A stretch of 64,000 nt of DNA. Source: Enchytraeus crypticus (lineage: Eukaryota; Annelida; Clitellata; Enchytraeida; Enchytraeidae). Where the stretch lies: NCBI GenBank assembly GCA_905160935.1, contig CAJHZI010000742.1:1-64000 (forward strand), read 5' to 3'. A program made the position numbers and the translations under genes. Shown in pieces: positions 6,416 to 64,000 of this stretch (its first letter is position 1; every line of letters begins with the position of its first letter). The notes below the pieces were generated by a model. That model saw only the letters and a program-made list of their open reading frames with translations, did no database searches and was not told where the DNA came from.

Positions 6416-6443
6416 TATAAATACCAGTGTTATACATTCAGTT
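6416..6443 (+). promoter_or_regulatory. TATA box and initiator of the homeobox gene
   Basis: TATAAATA at 6416-6423 is followed 24 bp later (from its first base) by TTCAGTT at 6437-6443, a good initiator match with the A at 6440 as the likely start. This would give a 5' UTR of about 170 nt before the ATG at 6611. The spacing is at the short end of normal. Both are matches to known core-promoter patterns and are not proven by transcript data. Confidence 0.5.
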
Positions 6444-6610: not shown

Positions 6611-6665
6611 ATGGATATATTTGACAAGGAACGAAATTTGCCTTCTGGCTACATGATGAATCCAG
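6611..6665 (+). CDS. Homeobox gene exon 1
   Basis: 18 codons plus one base, from ATG to the donor CCAG|GTAAG. The start was chosen because it lies downstream of the TATA/initiator pair and joins in frame to the exon at 10193. It ends in phase 1. Confidence 0.75.
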
Positions 6666-9600
6666 GTAAGTTATACTAACATAATGACACTTTATTTTGA
6701 TTAATTGAAGTATAGGCTAAGCAATTTTTATTAGAATTTAAATATATACATTTGAAGGGTTTGACCCAATATGAGATTGTAATGAACACGAAGGATATTT
6801 ATGGGACAATTCCGCTTCACAATCTACAATCAATCAGTGGGTAGCTGAATTCCAGCGAAGTAGGCGAGTACCGTTCAGGACGCCCGGTCGAGATCTGTAG
6901 GCCTACCGAAGAAAATATTCAACCAATCCAGGATATGATACAAAATGATAGACGATTCAGCATCAGATACGTAGTTGATAGTCTTAAGTGTTGATGGCCT
7001 GGTTTGTGCACATTTGAGTGTATTTTTGAAATAAACATAGTTCTCTCTCTCTCTCTCTCTCTTAAGTTGTCATATTGCACGACCCATCATATTATTACTG
7101 ATGGTTTGGGTTACAACAAGGTGTGTGCTAGATGGGTTCCACGAATTTTTACAACTGAAATCAATCAAGTAGGACTAACAATTTCCCCGTGAATATCTCG
7201 ATCTGTACAGAACAGCCCAGGCAAAGTTTCTTCGCAGATATGTTACAGATGAGACTTGGGCTCTCAACTTTTTTGTAAAACAAAATCCATAGTTCATCAA
7301 TTTATGCAGTTTAACGTTACACCCTTTTCTATCTCTCTCTGTCTCTCTCTCTCTCTGCGTTCTGTCAAGTAGCAGATCCAAGGTACTGATCATTCTCAGA
7401 ATTTGAATTCACACTCTATAAAGGCACCCCATATATCAATAAGTTAATCCCTTCACAAAATGCAACTACTCATTCACACCTTGCGCATTCCCTGCTTGAG
7501 AAAATATGGCTTCTGGGCGGTGGCTTCCCGTTGCTTTCTTCACCTCTTGCCAAGTAGCCCTTTCGACACTTGTAGTTAACAATAATTCTATTCTTCATGG
7601 GAACTCGCTGCGACTTCAATGACATAGGCCTATTGAAAATGATATCTCCTAATTGAAATTTGGACAAATTTAGTGAAATACTGAAAATGGAATTTAATTT
7701 AATTTTGCACAACTTTAATAAAATACTGAAAATCATATCTAATTGAATTTTGTACAACTTTAATGAAATACTGAAAATGGAATTTGCAAAATCTGAAAAT
7801 GGAATACTGAGAATGGAATTGTGATATACAGTGTATATCACAATATGAACGCCAACGGCTACTGAATGCGTTGCCAGCGTCGATCGTGTGGGAATTGAAT
7901 ACTTAAATCAAAATTCAATGTTTCAAAGTTCAAAATTGACTTTTCAATGAAAATGTGAATAAAAATACTAAATTAACTTCTGCCTCAATCATCGTAAAAT
8001 GAATAAACTCCATGTTGAAATAAATGTATTTATCTTGGACTCGCTGATCTTAAATGAACGTAACTATGAATTTAGACAGTGAAGCGGAATAAGTAAATTG
8101 AAGATATCAATTGATGAATATTTCAGTTGTGGATTTCAATCACTGCTAAGTGAGAATGCTTGAAAAATTTCTCCTCTCTCTACTAATCACACTTGCTTGC
8201 TAAGTGATACTATCGTATACATATATTTCTTGTGATTATTTTATATTAGCTGCAATTAATTTTGATTTAATTAACCTGATAATGCGTACTCACAGAGTAT
8301 CCAACTGTTTCATAATATCACATTCTTCTTGATTTATTCGTTTTCTCAATCATTAATGTAATTATCTTCCGTCGTTTTTATTAATTTTAATTTCATTTTA
8401 CGATTTATTGAGTTATTTATTTTTTCAACTAATCGGGATTTTGATCTAGATAGTTGTCTCCTCTCATGAAATCTGAATAATTCAACATATGACGCATTTG
8501 ATATGTCTTCGACACTGCGTGCACACGTGATTTCAGGGTTGAGTTTTCTGGGGGAGGGAGTTGGGGGATTCGATCCCCTTGATAGATGTGTGACCCCTTA
8601 CTAAAGTTTAAACTCTCGGGTTTTGCCATCCCCTATTACAAATTATTTTGAATGACGGGTTGAGAGCTGGATACAGTGTTCTCTACTCTTTAACTGCCTT
8701 TATGCACAGAATAAATAATGTCATAAATTGATTATTTATCTGTGTTTAAATACATTTCCAATCAAATCTTCCATACAAAAATTTAGATATCACTAAAGCC
8801 AAAACTAAAGCCAAAGCCAAGTTTAACGTCGGTTTCCTGCTCGATATTATTTCAGTTACGGTAAAGCACTGGATTAGAACTCTGCACCTGTAGAACAACA
8901 TGCCAACATGCCACCTGCTCTGCCCTCAGCGTCGAGTCTAGATTGTTATTATAAGAATTATACATCTATCAATTTAATGCATAAGCTACATTATAAATAA
9001 AATAATGTAACTTATGTTTCCTGTTCAAAACATAAATTGCTCGACCGAAATTTAAATTGAAGATTTTATTACGTATTAGGCAAGTGTGCTATCAATGGGA
9101 CCATTCATTCGCTAGAACCATACAATTCCCATATTTGCATTTTTATACATCTATACATACTGTTTTAGTTGGTGATATTATTTGCTATCTATTCGTAGGC
9201 GGATGTTTCATATGTTAAATCCGATGAACTTGATAACATATACACATTATACAGTACTTCACAACACGGCATTTATAGACCTAATCAATTTGTGAAGTTA
9301 ATTAGTTAAAGTTATTATTAAATTGAAGTTATTAGTACTTAAATACTAATGAAACTAATGAAGAAAATTATGAACTATTATCATATTGTCATACTTCAGT
9401 CTTGATTTTAATGTCCTGAAGGATTGCACCAATAATATTTAAGTTTTGTTCATGTTTAATTTAGGTACATTAATTAAGTAAGGTACTGCAGATGTTTAGT
9501 AATTTGACGGAATTCAAAAATCGTCATAATCGTCTTCTTCGTCGTAGTCGTCGTCAGCGTCATCATCATCATCATTATCATCTTATTAAATAGTTATTAA

Positions 9601-12435
9601 TGATTCTGTTTTTAAATGTATAATTGTGCATACTTATTATCATTAATTTTCTTTATTTTGAATTTCTTTATTTCAATTCTTTAATTTTTACTTTATATTT
9701 TCATTTTAAGTTCACCATGGTTCACATTTGGTTTATGTTCACTTATTACATTTACTTGATTGTTTGCATTGATTGTGAACTGTACAGGGTTGAATGACCC
9801 TTTTTGGTGATCTAAATAAATAAATAAATAAAATAAATAAATAAAATCTTCCCCTGAATCACAATTTAAGTAGGGTCGGGATAATAAAATTGTGTAGCGT
9901 GCTATTTCTGTAGCCTATGAGCTCACCAAACGAATACCCTTTCTGACGTTGGTTTAGATTGTAGTGCTTTGCCACCTTTTCACGAAATATGCAATCCACG
10001 GCTGGTCTATATTTTTTCAGCAAACGCAGATATAGCGCGGGGATTTGCCGATCAAACATATGCAACATCTTTTGTGCATTGTTGCATACCTTGACTAAAT
10101 CCTAGGCTAATTTTGTAAGGTGATTGATTCGGAAAACAGGATCTATGTAATTAAAAAGCCTATATTTACTACTAATTGTTTTTCTTGCGCAGCCGGTCTA
10201 TCGTCATGCATGTACGCCAACTCGAATGCTTCAGTGTTCAACGAAGCGCCAGGAAGATACTACCAGCAAGCCATGAAGCCTTCACATCAAACACAACGAC
10301 CTCAGCAACCTTGCCAATATGTCCGTCATATGCCTCCATACCGAGGAGAGCTACAGGCTTCATGTCAAGTGACGAATGCATCTGAAATCAACAGAAATTT
10401 TTGTCGATTTGCTTCCAATGAACAAGCATTCTGCGGTGCTAATGATGCCACCATGGGCATTGCGAATTGCAGTCTCTCCCAGGAACAGATGGCATGCAAA
10501 TATCAACAAAACACGCAGAATGAATCAAATCTTGGAAACCAGATGATGCTAAATGATCACCTGAATCAGGGACTGCAGTTAAGACGCCAAGCTTTGAATG
10601 AGAGCTGGGCGTTTAATCAGCCAAATTCAATGAATCTGAGAGTGGCATCAGCAGGCCATTTTGGATCATCTCAGTTTGGATTCGGAGAGCCAACTCAGTA
10701 TCATCAGATGTTTCCACATCAAGCCCTGTCCAGTGCTTCTAGCCAGATTTCATCCCCAAACCTTGGAGTAATGCAGCAAGAGACGCTTCAAGACTCTCTC
10801 ATGCTGCATAATGACCAAGCTGTCATGCAAGGAAGACTGGGGATGCAGAATCCACTCTATCGTCATCAGGAAATGATGATGCACAGATTTGAACGATTTC
10901 AGCAGATGAATCAAGTTCCAGTTCCGCCAAACGCTTTGGAGCATCACAGCAACATCAGCATCGATATTCCACAGTATATTTATGCTACTGGTTATCCCAG
11001 CAATATGGTGTGGGACGGTAAGACTGCTCAACGGAACTGGGGTGACTCGGGATTGCAGGAAGTTCAAATGGCGGAACTGCAAGAAGGAGGAGATAATTCG
11101 ACGGCTTCTCAGAATCTTCAAGATGTCTGGAAAGAGGAACCAAATCAAACTGGAGAAACGAAAAAGCCCAAGTATAAGAAAACTAAGAAGGTTATTCCAG
11201 ACAGAACTGCGAATTGTTTGCTACAGCAAGCACTAAATACCAATAAAGGTTACCGAGGCGAGAAGTTCGAGTACAGCTATGATCAATTAGAACTTTTCGC
11301 TAAGGCTTATGAATACACGCGCTACCCTTCCTGTGCCCAGAGAGAAGTTCTTGCTCTACGAATGGGCATTACAACGGGCCAGGTTAAAACATGGTTCCAG
11401 AATCAAAGACAAAAGGACCACAAGACCAAGAAAACTAACTCAAACAAGGCATACAATATCAACAAAAACAAGGAAATGCAAAAAATACAATACTCAGATC
11501 CAATTAAGCGTAGCAAATTAAACAATATCATAGGCGCAGTCCTAGCAGAAATGAAAATGGCAGAAAGCCTGGAAAAGGCAGAAGCTTCGAAGGTTAACGG
11601 ACAAGCAGGAGCCTCAATTTATCAAGACGACAAGAAGAAATCCATTAATAATAAATTCTTGCGTCTTGATAGCGAAACCATCGCCAGAATAGTTAGTCAG
11701 AGCATCGGCGCAGCACCTCAGGTAAACCAGAGGAACTCTAGTGAGGTAGTGGAACAGGGACACCGTTTGAACCGTGTATGTGGGACAGAGATGACAAATT
11801 CAACCCCTCAGAATGACGCACGGTTGGGTAGTGATGAATCCGGTGAACCAGGACGTCTATCAGTCCAATCCTCGTCATCCGGGATCTCGTCATCCTCATC
11901 CAACAAGCCTGCCGCATCTTCACCATCGGAAGGGTCATCTCCGCCTCTCTCTCCGTCCACGTTTTTCTCGTCCACTACAAATCCGCAAGGGTCGTCATGT
12001 CTTCCAGCGCTCTCGTCATCTGAAATTTCAACATCATCATCGTCGTGGTCATCATCAGTAGCAGCATCCTCAACTGTTCCTCTTGCTACCACATCGCGAA
12101 TGTCCTCAAGGTCCGTGATTCCTCAGTATGGTCAGAGAATTGTCCAGAGAACTGTTCAGGTGGATGAACCTGTTTGGTCAGGACTACCGAAAATACTGGA
12201 CATGGCCGGACCCCCAAATGTAAAAATGACCGAGATGCCACATCAGACGAAGGTCGATACAAAAGTTAACAAAATAAGTTACTCTACAATGTCAGAGCTA
12301 CAAGTGCCAAATGTATTGGATATGCCTGGTCCGCCCAATGCTCTGACGCCTTCATGTCTGAATGCTAGCGAAGGCTACATTGTCTTTCCTCTGGCACAAT
12401 TTAAGTTACATGTTAATTATAATAATTATTATTGA
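6611..12435 (+). CDS. Divergent homeodomain transcription factor (two exons, 765 aa)
   Basis: Exons 6611-6665 and 10193-12435 join in phase 1 (CCAG|GTAAG donor; TTTCTTGCGCAG acceptor). The split codon gives Ala19, and the N-terminus reads MDIFDKERNLPSGYMMNP. Residues 19 to about 370 are rich in Gln, Met, Asn and Ser. A 60-residue homeodomain spans about 372-431 with Trp48, Phe49, Gln50, Asn51 and Arg53 in place, but Gln at 52. Its recognition helix reads QVKTWFQNQRQK. Next comes a basic Lys/Asn segment, a Ser-rich stretch (about 577-655), and two copies of LDM[AP]GPPN near 687 and 727. It should be a nuclear sequence-specific DNA-binding protein. The class is unclear: there are no three-residue-loop (TALE) insertions, the RYPSCAQRE loop is PRD-like, and the helix resembles vertebrate Nanog, probably by convergence. 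Targets are unknown. Confidence 0.88.
6825..7290 (+). pseudogene. Decayed mariner-type transposase fragment
   Basis: Three frame-shifted pieces line up in family order. First is an N-terminal HTH part: INQWVAEFQRSRR, then RSGRPVEI, then EENIQPIQDMIQNDRRFSIR. Next is KVCARWVPRIF, with HHIITDGLG before it. Last is KFLRRYVTDETWAL, which corresponds to the mariner VTGDETW motif holding the first catalytic Asp. A (CT)n insertion (7042-7061), several frameshifts and stops, and loss of the C-terminal half show it is dead. It lies in the sense orientation inside intron 1 of the homeobox gene. No terminal inverted repeats were identified. Confidence 0.88.
7345..7460 (-). mobile_element. LINE 3' end, family 2
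   Basis: The reverse complement shares TTGTGAAGGGATTAAC, a TATGG-like block and the terminal GGATCTGCTACTTGAC/ACGCAGAGAG motif with the copies at 12568-12690 and 55985-56106, and it ends in (GA)n. It is truncated at the 5' end, with no coding block. Confidence 0.5.
8790..8930 (-). repeat. Probable degraded SINE-A copy
   Basis: Repeated AAAGCCAA followed by TTTAACGTCGGTTTCCT matches the 3' core of SINE-A in reverse orientation. The tRNA-like head is too diverged to confirm. Confidence 0.4.
9855..10085 (-). repeat. Dispersed repeat family D
   Basis: The block ACGAATACCCTTTCTGACGT, followed by GGTTTAGAT, a CGCCTTTTACGACA-like segment and a GCGGGGATTT end, matches copies at 34140, 38085, 43818 and 46055. 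Here it sits just upstream of the homeobox exon 2 acceptor. Confidence 0.65.
10193..12435 (+). CDS. Homeobox gene exon 2 (homeodomain, tail, stop)
   Basis: The terminal coding exon encodes residues 19-765 and ends at the TGA at 12433-12435. The homeodomain occupies 11251-11430, and the Ser-rich region about 11865-12100. The open frame runs back to 10120, but 10120-10192 carries the polypyrimidine tract and acceptor, so that part is intronic. No AATAAA lies within about 1 kb downstream. Confidence 0.92.
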
Positions 12436-12567
12436 TATGTCGATACAAAGCCCGTTCCGAAACAGGTGACAGAGCTTAAACTGACAAGTGAAAAGGCAAA
12501 TCACCTCAGAAGTCGTAATTTGTCAAGGCAATAGGCTATAGTTTAGGTATGGGTAAGGCATAACCTC

Positions 12568-12690
12568 TTGTGAAGGGATTAACTCGTTGATCTATGGAGT
12601 GCTCTATATGAAGCGTGAAAGCAGACGCAAGAGTATGAATATGTATCGTGGACCTGCCACTCTGCAGAACACTAGAAAGAGAAAGATTAG
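12568..12690 (+). mobile_element. LINE 3' end, family 2
   Basis: GAAGGGATTAACTCGTTGAT, a TGGAGTGCTCTATATGAAGC block and GTGGACCTGCCACTCTGCAG, followed by CACTAGAAAGAGAAAG. The same order occurs at 55985-56106 and, reversed, at 7345-7460. Confidence 0.6.
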
Positions 12691-19234: not shown

Positions 19235-22200
19235 GTATTGTCTATAAAAGTCATTACGTCACAGCTCACGTGACGGCGCTACAGCTGACAGTTGTTTGTT
19301 GACAAATAAAGCATTGAACATAGTGATAATTGCTAGTAATATTATAAAATGTCACTATATTAAATTTTCAATTGATTTCAATATTTTATATTATTTTATC
19401 ATCCTAAAATATATATTACAAGCAATTTACCTTTTTCTATCTTTTAATGAGAAAATACACCTGAAAGCGATTGTATTGTGCATTTAAAATGTAATATTAA
19501 TAGATCAAAAATGCAACAACCATATTTGTTTACAAACAAACCGTGTCGTATTTGCATATTTTGGCAACTTAGAAGTTAGAGACGAATTTTTAACATGAAA
19601 AATTAACACTTTACTATTTCGAGGAATCCAATAATGCTACAATACAACTAACCCATATTCCATTAGTAATGTAGGGCTACACATGTAGCACATTAACTAT
19701 ATAATTGCTAATACGTAAATTAAAACTTGTATTACATTAACATATACATGAACGTTTGCGGTATGTATAAACGTGAATTTTTCTCAGATTAGCTGTTCTC
19801 TCACACATATTATAAAGATAAACTGTTTGTTATAAAGATCTGTTAAGATAATTTGTTAACTTCTACTCTATAGGAAGAGATGATGTTAGAATTTGACTAC
19901 ACGGGAGCCAAATGGGGATTCTGGATGAGGGACAAATACTTCTTTCACGAATATACTGAAATGATCTATACTGAAGAATTCGGCCAAGTGGTACGAATGC
20001 TATAGAGATCTAGTATTAAATTTATCTCAAGAGCTGAAACGATCTACATGTATACCTGGATAATTCAATGAAGTAATTTAATAGCAAATGCAGCCGAGTT
20101 ATGAATTAGAAGTTCTTCATTAGAAATTATATGCATTCGAGAATTGGGTGAAACTGTGAGAAATAATCATTTAAACATTCCTTTTCATTTCTAAATCTTA
20201 AAAAAATAGTCTATTTTAATTTTTTTCTAAGTTTCATTTTCTTTGGTATGGAAGCTAGTAAAAGCATGCGATTTTATGCTTCCATTAGAGGTTTCTTAAT
20301 GAACTTGTAATTTACTATACATGAACAATAGTCTACATGTATAACGTTATCCCTGTCATGCTGCGACTTCTTTATCTATACTATATGTCTATAGGCCGGT
20401 ATTGTTGAATATCTAGTATAGGCCTATGCATTATTATTATGTCTGTTTCTATTTTATATATTTCCCGGTTCGTATTATTTCTCAGTGAGTCCCTCTCTTT
20501 CTCCTCTCTCCCCCCCCCCCCTCTCTCTCTCTCGCTCTATCTGCTTGTCAGTGGTTAATGTTTTCTTTCTGTTTTTTACGTGTTTATGTCTTTTTCACCT
20601 TATTCTCTATTTTTTCAGTCTGTCTCATTACAGCATCACCCGATTCTCTATTTTCTCTCTCTACTTCATTACAGCCGTACAAACAAAGGCTTTTAGTTCC
20701 TATTTTACTATGGTGAAAATTGTATTTATTTCTTGTTCCCATTCCAATTTCTATTCCGTGATAGTTAATAATTTGTCTATAGTTACGTTATAATTCTGGA
20801 TTTAAGTAGAATTCTTTATGAAAAAAGTAAACTGCATCGATTTTTTTGTACAATATTTCAGAGGAAGGCGAGCACGGCAAACTTTCAGGGCTGTGTAACC
20901 AATCACATCATGAGAGTTCAGCAAATGCACATACCGTGTATACCAGGTTAGTTGTTTGCTAGGAGAGGGTTGGAGCACTTGGTTTAACATGCGCGTCAGT
21001 ACGCGAAATAGCGCTTCGAAAAGCAACTTCGGGTTCGGTATGTACTTAGAATAGTGACCATAATGCAGGACCGACAGAGTGGCCATATTGGAGGACAGAC
21101 CTGAGCATCTTGGAAGACTGGCTGAGTGGCCATTTTGGAGGACTGGCTGAGTGGCAGTATTGGAGGACTGACCTAGTGACCTTATTGGATGACCGACCGA
21201 GTGGCTATTTTGGAGGACCATATGGCCATATTGGAGGACCTACCGAGTGACCATATTGGAGGACCGAGTGGCCATATTGAAGGACCGACCTGAGCATCTT
21301 GGAAGACTGGCTGAGTGGCTATATTGGAGGACCGACCGAGTGACCATATTGGAGGACCGAGTGACCATATTGGAGGACCGAGTGACCATATTGGAGGACC
21401 GAGTGACCATATTGGAGGACCGAGTGACCATATTGGAGGACCGAGTGACCATATTGGAGGACCGAGTGACCATATTGGAGGACCGAGTGACCATATTGGA
21501 GGACCGAGTGACCATATTGGAGGACCGAGTGACCATATTGGAGGACCGAGTGACCATATTGGAGGACCGAGTGACCATATTGGAGGACCGAGTGACCATA
21601 TGGAGGACCGAGTGACCATATTGGAGGACCGAGTGACCATATTGGAGGTCGGACCGAGTGCTAACAGATTTGAATTATTTAATTCACACAGTCACAACAT
21701 TGAAAGATTTTTCCTAATTCTGCGCCGACTTCAATCATTTGCAAGTAATTAATCATATCAAAAGACAACAATTACCTTGGAGGAGGAAACTTAAACTACA
21801 AAAGCAACAACTGAGCAACTAAGCTCTGTAACACGTGTCATGTGAGCAAAAACGCGAACAAACAAGCTCCATGGTCTTTTATTTTTACCCAATCATTGCT
21901 TCTCTCTCTCTAATCTTTGTCACTTCCATATGAAGAAGGCAACAATGAGTATAATAATAAGAACACAGCGACTTAACAGAAATTCAAGCAAGAAATCACT
22001 TATCTAGGTCCAAACTTTGAAGAGACATGCACTAATTTCAATGTGAATAAAACATCAGCCTTAACGATGTAGCCAAGCACACGGGATGGTATGAATACAA
22101 TTACATAAAAAGTGGTAATGAGAGAATGTTTATTTGCACCGTTGTACTTATCAACCTTTAGCTGATCTGAGTAAAAAAATAAATAGATCTTAATCTCTCT

Positions 22201-25200
22201 CACTCTCTCTATTTTTCTTCTCTGTCAATTTCAACTGCAACTGCTCTCACTTGCTCTCACTTAGTTCATCTGCTTCATACCTCTTTAATTTTATTATTTC
22301 TCTCGTTTTTTCTCCCCTCCCTCTCTCGCTCTATCTCTTTCTTTCATTTATGGTACTTGATATATTTATTCTTGATCCTCTTTTAATCCAGCTAGAACTT
22401 AAAATTTGTTGATTCGTAATTCTATCCTCTTTCTATGACTTTTTATTTGTACCATTTCGTCACTATCACGGACACCTAGACATTGATATATCGTTGCTTG
22501 CTTAAACTAACATCATTCACCAGGTGACAGTATGATTAGGTCGCAACTATCAAATGGAACTATCATAAAGCTGACTAACCTTATAGAAATGAATACTGTT
22601 TTAGTCAAGACAAAACATAAAACTAAAGCTAAAGCTAGCCGCCTGATACCTAAACATGTTTGATAAGAATGTGGGTAACGCATTTGGAAGAGATTTACCA
22701 ATCAGTTTAAAATAATATTGGTAATAATAAAGGTTTAACATCCGTTTCCTCATACAAGGATGGTGTCAGGGACGTCCACCCTCATCGCATGTCACTACAA
22801 ATCGATTCGTCCCAAACGATCTGAAAAAACACGTGCTGAAGAGAAAGTAAAAGATCCTAAACGGTGCCGGTCCGGTGATAAAAGAAAAGTCAGGAATGTT
22901 AAAAATGTGCATCTTAACATTCATGTTCTCTATCAAACCTGACAAGTATAGTGTTGTACTAAATATATTTCAGATTGGGCGGAGCACGTGGAGACAGGCT
23001 ACATAGGTGAGGGAAAGAACAAGGCCTGGTACGACACCTGGAAGTGGCAGTTCAACTCCACTCAGAACAACGAGAAGACGACCATCAGCGTGGTGGGCTC
23101 TTACTACCACGACAACTGCCTGCCCATGTCTGAAGTGGCATGGTGGACAGCAAGCGACTGTGAGTAGAGAACTGCTCGGTGCCTTGTTGATTATATGTAT
23201 TAGATTAAACTAATTAAATTAATTAATTAAATAGAATTAAATGTAATTAGAGAAAGATTGATCGAATGTGGTACAACATTTTGTAGTGATGTGTGCTGTG
23301 GGGACGTCCCTGATATCATCCCTGGATGAGAAAACGGACGTTAAGCCTCTATTATTATTACTATTTATATGTATTAAATAATGTATTGGGCTGAGCCGGT
23401 GGCTTGTTGGCAAGTAGCATAACAGCGGATCAGTAGGTGGAGGGTTCAAATCCAGCGCTCTTCCCGTCACTGCCATCCTACTCGAGCAGGTAACTGACGT
23501 CAACCTTGTCTTTAGCTTTTTAGCCTTTATTATACTATTATATGCAAGATGCAACTAGATAATGGTAACAAATCATTGCCGTCCTATTCTTAGATAAAAT
23601 TTTAGAAAATAAAGGGATTAGATGAATATTTCAAAATCAGATGAAATAATTGGAATATTTCATTTTATGTAGGTCCACTAAAGTCGGAATAAATATTAAA
23701 ACCTATCAGAGAAATTATATTTAATAATTCTCATAGGAATTAATGATTGTTTGCTTATTGCAGTTGACTACACAACTTACATAAGTTTTCTAGACTTCGA
23801 GAAGGGATCTGCATTAGATGAAAGTAGATCACCATTTAAAGAACTCGAGTTGTATTATGATTGCGAGGACAGCTACACTAAGGTATAAATCTGATTAGAA
23901 CCAGTAATAGAAAATAGTACACATATTTAATTATATTATTTATATAGATCTATATTTAATTATATTCAATACACATAATTTTATTTGTTCCTTGAATTAA
24001 CTAAATCCGAAATATGTAAGCGCTCCTATGGCCTGTATCTTCCGTTCGCACAACCGTTTCCATATTTCGCTTTTATATTTGCTTTACCTGCGCTTTTGAA
24101 TGTTTGATGTGACGAATAAATAAATAAAAATAAATAAATCATACATATTTATTTATTGCCCTATGTTAGGAGACTTTCTAAACTAAAAGATCACAATTGA
24201 CAATTAAATTAACAACAGCTAACAGCTAAAAACTAAGTGGTTGACTTCATTTTTTTCCATTGAGGTCAAGGCATGATAATCGTGAAAATGCTCAAGTCGG
24301 GGGAGATGGGAGAATCGTGTTTGCCATCAATGACTCTCAATCTACGTGAAAATGTTTTGGGACATCTCTGCTAACCAAATTCAACATCCTTACTTTATAA
24401 TACAAATATTAATACTATTGAAGATATCGGCAATAATATTAAAGACCAGGGCTGTAGCATCAAAGGCATATTGTCTGATTGTAGATAATCCATGGCTAGC
24501 CCATTCGCAGGCATGATTTTGCAGGCGTAAAAGAAGAAAAACACGATTTAGCGATATTTAGCAATAACATATGCTTCTAAGCGAACTTAATTGATCAGTT
24601 AATTGATCGGGTAATTGGTCGAGTAATTGATCAGGTAATTGATCAGGTAACTGATCAGTTAATTGATCAGTTAATCGATCAGTTAATTGATCAGGTAATT
24701 GATCGGGTAATTGATCAGGAAACTAAATGTTCAGGCAAGCGATCAGGTAATTGATAAGGTAACATATCGGGTAATTGATCAAGTAATTGATCAGTGAATG
24801 TATCATTTAATTGATCATGTAATTGATCAGTGAATGCATCATTTAATTGATCAGGTAATTGATCAGTGGATGTATCAGGTAATTGATCAGGTAATTGATC
24901 AGTGAATGTATCAGGTAATTGATCAGGTAATTGATCAGTGAATGTATCAGGTAATTGATCAGGTAATTGATCAGTGAATGTATCATTTAATTTATCAGGT
25001 AATTGATCAGTGAATGTATCATTTAATTGATCAGGTAATTGATCAAGAAGTTTATTAGGTATCTGATCTGTTAATATACCAGATAACTGTTCTGGTAACT
25101 GATCAGATAATTGATCTGGTAAAATAATGGGGTAAAATAATCTGGTAATTTACCTGTTAATGGATGACTTCAGCGGGCTAATTATGTGGTTTTGATTTGG

Positions 25201-63315: not shown

Positions 63316-63476
63316 AAATTTAAAATTTCAAGTAATAATTAAATTTCCAACTCGAAACCGAACGCATTGATCCTGCAAAATGATCACAAGAGTTTTATAT
63401 TTTAATGACGGTTCATCCAGTATGATATTAAATTGTGTTTTCTTTCGTGGACATTGATACTCCACGCCCGGGAAAG

Positions 63477-64000
63477 GTTGATGCTGCTGATGCTACTGAT
63501 GCTATTGATGCTACTCCTGCTAATAATGCTATTGATGCTACTGATGCTACTTATGCTACTGATGCTACTAATGCAACTAATGCTACTAATGCAACTGATG
63601 CTTCTAATGCAATTGATGCTTCTAATGAAACTGATGCTTCTAATGCTACTGATGCTACTGATGATACTGATGCTTCGAATGCTACTGATGCTTCTAATGC
63701 TACTGATGCTACTGATGATACTGAGGCTACTAATGCAACTAATGCTACTAATGCAACTAATGCTACTAATGCAACTAATGCTGCTAATGCAACTGATGCT
63801 ACTGATGCTATAGATGCTACCGGATATGCGGATGGTACTAATGCTACTGATGCTATTGATGCTACCGATGATGCGTATGGTACTAATGCTACTGATGCTA
63901 TTGATGCTACCGATGATACGGATGGTACTAATGCTACTGATGCTACCGATGCTATTGATGCTACTGACGTTTTGAAGCCTTGTTTTACTCCACGTCCTAT
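63477..64000 (+). CDS. Possible exon: (Asp/Asn)-Ala-Thr tripeptide repeat, open to window end
   Basis: In the frame with codons at 63480, 63483 and so on, the array reads DAADATDAIDATPANNAI, then many DAT, NAT, DAS, NAI and DDT units, with GYADGT and DDAYGT inserts. It ends with DVLKPCFTPRP, which is unique sequence at the edge. This frame is open from 63432 (TAA at 63429) to 64000. Most changes keep Ala (GCT/GCA) and Thr/Ser in place. NAT is an N-glycosylation sequon if secreted. There is no ATG in frame, so it would need an upstream exon (a weak acceptor lies at 63476). The alternative is a plain microsatellite: a second forward frame is also open to 63813, and tri/9-mer repeats stay open by chance. 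Confidence 0.3.
63481..63970. repeat. GATGCTACT array (3/9/18-bp periods)
   Basis: About 490 bp of GATGCTACT and AATGCAACT units, with an 18-bp period AATGCTACTAATGCAACT locally and a 45 to 60-bp higher-order unit (ATTGATGCTACCGATGATGC…GGTACTAATGCTACTGATGCT) near 63820-63960. Confidence 0.95.

Follow-up and report, generated by a model that had tools for sequence, protein, structure and literature searches.

A predicted two-exon gene of Enchytraeus crypticus, a small annelid living in soil, encodes a protein whose homeodomain carries in its recognition helix the same ten residues, QVKTWFQNQR, as human NANOG in the PDB. The predicted gene is intact, its homeodomain is complete, and it is a real, unusually divergent homeobox gene of a known kind. 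We consider it probable that this is a functional, fast-evolved orphan of E. crypticus, a cryptic homeobox duplicate whose parent class has been blurred, with a paired-class (PRD) parent somewhat preferred to an NK-class one. The likeness of helix 3 to Nanog is best read as convergence. The first-pass annotation had attributed the same string to vertebrate Nanog, correctly, and had suggested that the gene may be a lophotrochozoan one; the source animal is an annelid of the class Clitellata, so 'lophotrochozoan' was right as well.

The gene lies in the window, by which we mean the whole stretch of DNA analysed, 64,000 nucleotides that form the start of contig C644 (198,362 bases). Its second exon falls within a stop-to-stop frame (10111-12435, +) that is open over 774 codons, where about 1e-21 frames of that length would be expected by chance in the six frames of the window at 34% GC. 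Exon 1 and exon 2, spliced in phase 1 (6611-6665 + 10193-12435), give a predicted protein of exactly 765 amino acids, the length given in the first-pass annotation. The features are as follows.

6416-6442, + strand: possible core promoter made up of two words, with a putative role
6611-6665, + strand: predicted exon 1, with ATG at 6611, 18 codons plus one base (MDIFDKERNLPSGYMMNP) and donor CAG/GTAAGT
6666-10192, + strand: predicted phase-1 intron
10193-12435, + strand: predicted exon 2, with acceptor ...TTGCGCAG; it completes the split codon and continues for 746 codons and the stop
11161-11190, + strand: basic stretch KKPKYKKTKK ahead of the homeodomain, a candidate nuclear localisation signal
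11251-11430, + strand: homeodomain (Pfam PF00046), 60 residues, amino acids 372-431, in a single exon and without insertion
11380-11409, + strand: QVKTWFQNQR of the recognition helix, at positions 44-53 of the homeodomain
12196-12219, + strand: LDMAGPPN, first copy of the C-terminal motif LDM[AP]GPPN
12316-12339, + strand: LDMPGPPN, second copy of the same motif

The possible promoter combines TATAAATA (6416-6423) with an initiator-like word, TCAGT (6438-6442, +), and the TATA word begins 24 bases upstream of the A in TCAGT. Three residues are abundant in the predicted protein, namely Ser at 11.9%, Gln at 9.0% and Asn at 8.0%; by eye, exon 2 is laid out as a Gln/Asn-rich N-terminal part, the homeodomain and a Ser-rich tail. 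That the gene is a non-functional or unexpressed copy, as the unusual divergence of its domain might suggest, is very unlikely, given the 774 open codons in a region of 34% GC, the intact splice sites and the core homeodomain residues that have been kept.

Intron 1 also holds what by eye seems to be the decayed remnant of a mariner-like transposase, in broken frames (window 6760-7320). Two inverted repeat arms of 58 nucleotides, 74% complementary and 5 kb apart (7424-7481 and 12545-12602), lie one in intron 1 and one behind the gene, and may represent a dispersed repeat present in two copies. Elsewhere in the window there are tandem-repeat frames at 24715-25149 (-), 21182-21752, 1366-1837 and 63409-63813, of which the first matches Pfam DUF2267 at 4e-7, most probably an effect of its repeats. 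ARAGORN found nothing in the window, and Rfam nothing in the window nor in 14 of the 16 loci fetched by then.

Pfam recognises the homeodomain at 1.7e-13 (50.6 bits; cut-off 22.9). Nothing else in frame 10111-12432 exceeds the Pfam cut-off there: Homeobox_KN matches below threshold, and there are no LIM domains and no paired domain. The 60 residues include Trp48, Phe49, Asn51 and Arg53, by which we assign the domain to the homeodomain superfamily, and Gln50 is kept as well; the same four are named among the conserved homeodomain residues in PMC5575656. The spacing is canonical, without the three-residue loop insertion of the TALE type. Helix 3 has Gln50, Asn51, Gln52 and Arg53; the complete domain, its helix string and the Gln at position 52 are all present as first described. 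Several residues are rare among 57 reference homeodomains (among them 29 ANTP, 22 PRD and 6 LIM): Lys5 and Gln54 occur in none, Phe16 in one, and Tyr20 and Gln52 in two each.

How far does the likeness to Nanog extend? Identity is 11/17 over residues 42-58 and only 7/41 over residues 1-41, or 18/60 overall. Over residues 1-41, four of the 57 references score below Nanog, and 49 score higher than, or rank alongside or above, it; in a smaller set of 39 references Nanog is tied lowest. When BLOSUM scores are taken across all 60 residues, it ranks 32nd of 41 references, and among PDB sequence matches NANOGP8 stands far down at 1e-5. Of seven residues named for Nanog-DNA contact or binding in PMC5575656, five (Y25, Q30, T47, N51 and R53) are the same in the annelid homeodomain, whereas Cys28 and Gly43 replace the Leu28 and Lys43 of Nanog; Gln54, furthermore, stands where Nanog has Met. 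Outside the domain the proteins differ in length (305 amino acids in NANOG versus 765). The C-terminal tryptophan repeat of NANOG, described as a Trp at every fifth residue (PMC5446312), is missing from the predicted protein, since only two Trp (637 and 680) follow the homeodomain. Trees were built with 43, 59 and 67 rows, and in none of the three is the domain sister to Nanog, which in the 59- and 67-row trees groups weakly with Bsx inside ANTP, apart from the annelid sequence. The first-pass comparison with Nanog therefore stands for the helix string, which is identical; it is otherwise shallow, confined to helix 3, and Gln52 is found elsewhere too. Nowhere else in the protein does the sequence point to close kinship with Nanog. 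We thus rejected Nanog orthology as the best reading on the low identity over residues 1-41, the BLOSUM rank and the trees. That the gene truly belongs to the Nanog family, as an invertebrate member, is extremely unlikely, even with the identical string, five shared contact residues and an AU test that does not reject the pair (p 0.22 and 0.48 in the 43- and 59-row trees). A text search of the literature for the exact string QVKTWFQNQR returned no match.

Neither component of the string is peculiar to Nanog. Gln52 occurs in LMX1A; the two of the 57 references that have it are Nanog and Lmx1b, and it is reported in LIM-type sequences of Trichoplax, Clytia, Hydra and Loa loa (PMC9495127). A second homeodomain with Gln52, which is paired-like, is present in the same genome (L001, below), and because both LMX1A and L001 have the residue it is no hallmark of Nanog. 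Among the 36 correctly anchored homeodomains in 40 fetched stretches of this genome, none has it; the count leaves out three that were wrongly anchored (L028, L030 and L031, which we take to be Six-type) and one without the tryptophan (L027). The eight residues QVKTWFQN recur in four references, Nanog, Hhex, Tlx1 and Bsx. Three Tlx-type homeodomains of the same genome (L032, L033 and L035) read QVKTWFQNRR, and an NK-type helix is therefore one substitution away from the Nanog string. Given that several NK-type homeodomains contain QVKTWFQN, and that Gln52 recurs in unrelated classes, the string would have arisen independently in the annelid gene.

Scored against class profiles built from the references, the domain reaches 39.6 bits with ANTP, 34.1 with LIM and 23.3 with PRD. 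PRD minus ANTP is thus -16.3 bits, a value that neither class attains in its leave-one-out range. The two parts of the domain lean in opposite directions: residues 1-38 slightly to PRD (7.6 versus 3.4 for ANTP), residues 39-60 to ANTP (36.2 versus 15.7 for PRD), with a helix 3 score inside the ANTP range. Over residues 1-41 the nearest references are Prd, Pax3 and al, at 15/41 each, and the PDB matches are led by DUX4, followed by an engrailed chimera and aristaless. Over the whole domain the best single reference is NK-type Bsx (23/60); several paired and NK types come next at 22, and in the set of the 67-row tree the highest identity is to an ANTP-class domain of the same genome (L017, 38%). 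The homeodomain thus resembles paired types over residues 1-41 and NK types in helix 3, and its branch in the trees is long.

The paired-class features (compared with aristaless, Prd, Pax3 and DUX4) include Arg31-Glu32 and Pro26, the latter found in 22 of 22 PRD and 6 of 6 LIM references and in none of the 29 ANTP ones. In contrast, Gln44, Lys46, Thr47 and Gln52 stand where the 22 PRD references typically have Arg44 (21), Gln46 (20), Val47 (19) and Arg52 (21), and the protein has no paired domain. An intron between homeodomain positions 46 and 47 is common in the PRD class, though not universal; it is absent from the predicted gene, whose homeodomain lies within one exon. The opposite derivation, from a diverged NK-like gene of the ANTP class, would have helix 3 inherited from a relative of the Bsx, Tlx or Hhex kind and Pro26, Glu32 and RE..LALR acquired by convergence. 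We regard it as possible. It agrees with the QVKTWFQN helix of those references and of the three Tlx-type domains, with the profile totals, with the identity to Bsx and L017, and with the free trees, but it has to account for Pro26, for the nearest PRD references over residues 1-41 and for a homeodomain that falls inside the ANTP group in none of three trees.

None of the three trees puts the domain inside the PRD, ANTP or LIM group, and its end branch measures 1.26, 3.02 and 3.37 in the 43-, 59- and 67-row trees, respectively. The 43-row tree contained a CUT row and a POU row whose alignment is probably off by one residue, both left out of the 59-row tree. Where PRD and ANTP part in the free trees, the domain stands with ANTP (93/78, 92/89 and 96/87). 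AU tests on the 43- and 59-row trees reject neither a union with PRD (p 0.19 and 0.45) nor one with LIM (0.51 and 0.49), nor the pairing with Nanog already mentioned; sixty columns are too few to decide between these classes. The first-pass view that the domain fits no class cleanly is thus borne out by the profiles and the trees alike, none of which places it firmly inside a known class.

The domain is joined in all three trees to the second Gln52 homeodomain, with support of 93/85, 98/88 and 97/87 (43, 59 and 67 rows).

L001 / L002:3644-5609 (contig C694): homeodomain of paired-like type that has Gln52 and is split at 46/47 by a predicted intron

The two have Gln52, Thr47, Pro26 and Lys18 in common; they are identical at only 22/60 positions, and differ in the 46/47 intron, predicted in L001 and absent from the gene in the window. 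Outside the homeodomain, a comparison of the protein with L002 gave no convincing match. L001 is paired-like by PDB comparison, with balanced profile scores of its own (67.8 PRD, 72.9 ANTP). The join may be long-branch attraction, helped by the common Gln52. Because L001 is paired-like by that comparison and has the predicted 46/47 intron, we lean slightly to a PRD origin for the gene in the window, which is favoured over the alternatives by only a little. It is unlikely that the two genes found an undescribed clitellate family, in which the helix would have converged on the Nanog solution (Thr47, Gln50, Asn51 and Gln52), so that the factor would prefer DNA sites as Nanog does and might act in early embryos or stem cells. 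L001 also has a basic KKRPGRP stretch after its homeodomain, and a frame upstream of it (L002:958-1689) contains repeats of a NTGNPLQGLSHPSL-like unit.

The genome searched has 802 contigs and a total of 524,188,772 bases. With E limited to 0.01, the search gave 46 matches, the gene itself and 45 others, of which 40 were fetched for residue counts. The best of the 45, at 41% identity and 3.2e-6, is at the level of an ordinary homeodomain, and no close unsplit paralogue was found within that threshold. L001 is not among the 46 because such a search sees intron-split domains poorly. A tandem homeobox cluster was rejected, as the stop-to-stop frames of contig C644 (at least 25 amino acids, E up to 1) hold no second homeodomain; its neighbours on that contig include an ion-channel gene (Ion_trans_2, 1.3e-23), besides frames that match kinase and ANF-receptor families. 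In the viral and prokaryote collections tblastn gave no relatives, and 8 and 26 stretches, respectively, agreed with a sequence pattern only. A homeodomain on contig C379 (L027/L057) was tried as a sister and rejected, being identical at 20/60 positions and standing beside Ventx on an unsupported branch of the 67-row tree (41/0).

That C379 domain (L057:1894-2238) is itself very divergent, with Tyr at position 48 (VKLYFQNARA), and an overlapping open frame (1218-2003) ends inside it. Three near-alike domains (L017-L019) are presumably NK1-type. Hox-type homeodomains lie on different contigs (L036, L041, L047-L049 and L052-L054), and three are labial-like; contig C551 has three of the Hox-type domains (L047-L049), one labial-like. 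These domains agree with the multiple Hox homologues reported for E. crypticus (PMC8460440). The same genome paper gives 160 homeobox genes in an assembly of 525.2 Mb, 910 scaffolds and 35.4% GC, and places Hox1, Hox3, two Hox5 variants and Hox7 on scaffold scf7180000023640.912933.

Divergent spiralian homeobox families, Lopx and novel PRD clades, are described from annelids and molluscs (PMC6118893, PMC5322547). Compared by description only, these lophotrochozoan clades resemble the gene in being lineage-restricted, with cryptic ancestry and a divergent homeodomain. Membership in one of them is a possible but less likely reading; such families do exist in both phyla, and Lopx is reported to have a C-terminal motif of its own (PMC6118893, Barton-Owen 2018). 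In the earthworm lineage, 11 PRD duplications in seven families have been inferred (PMC4758240, Zwarycz et al.), and these fit the reading of a clitellate duplicate.

On the preferred reading of a fast-evolved duplicate, the gene would act as an ordinary sequence-specific transcription factor. The protein would enter the nucleus by way of the basic stretches beside the homeodomain, and helix 3 would bind sites of the TAAT type, with Asn51 reading the core adenine and Gln50 and Thr47 the neighbouring bases, while Lys5 would take the place of the usual Arg5 in the minor groove. The Gln/Asn-rich and Ser-rich low-complexity flanks may regulate transcription, and the repeated LDM[AP]GPPN is a possible dock for a cofactor. 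An early-embryo role is plausible by analogy, because the oyster novel PRD2 and PRD4 genes are reported to be expressed from egg to blastula, others being late (PMC5322547, Paps 2015).

Lophotrochozoans are known for divergent, lineage-restricted homeobox genes, some of them recruited to the earliest stages of development (PMC5322547), and the gene in the window is an additional annelid case. It also serves as a caution, since homology is poorly judged from a run of ten identical residues in helix 3. Should helix 3 determine binding preference, the gene would provide a natural test for an independent origin of the Nanog-helix specificity.
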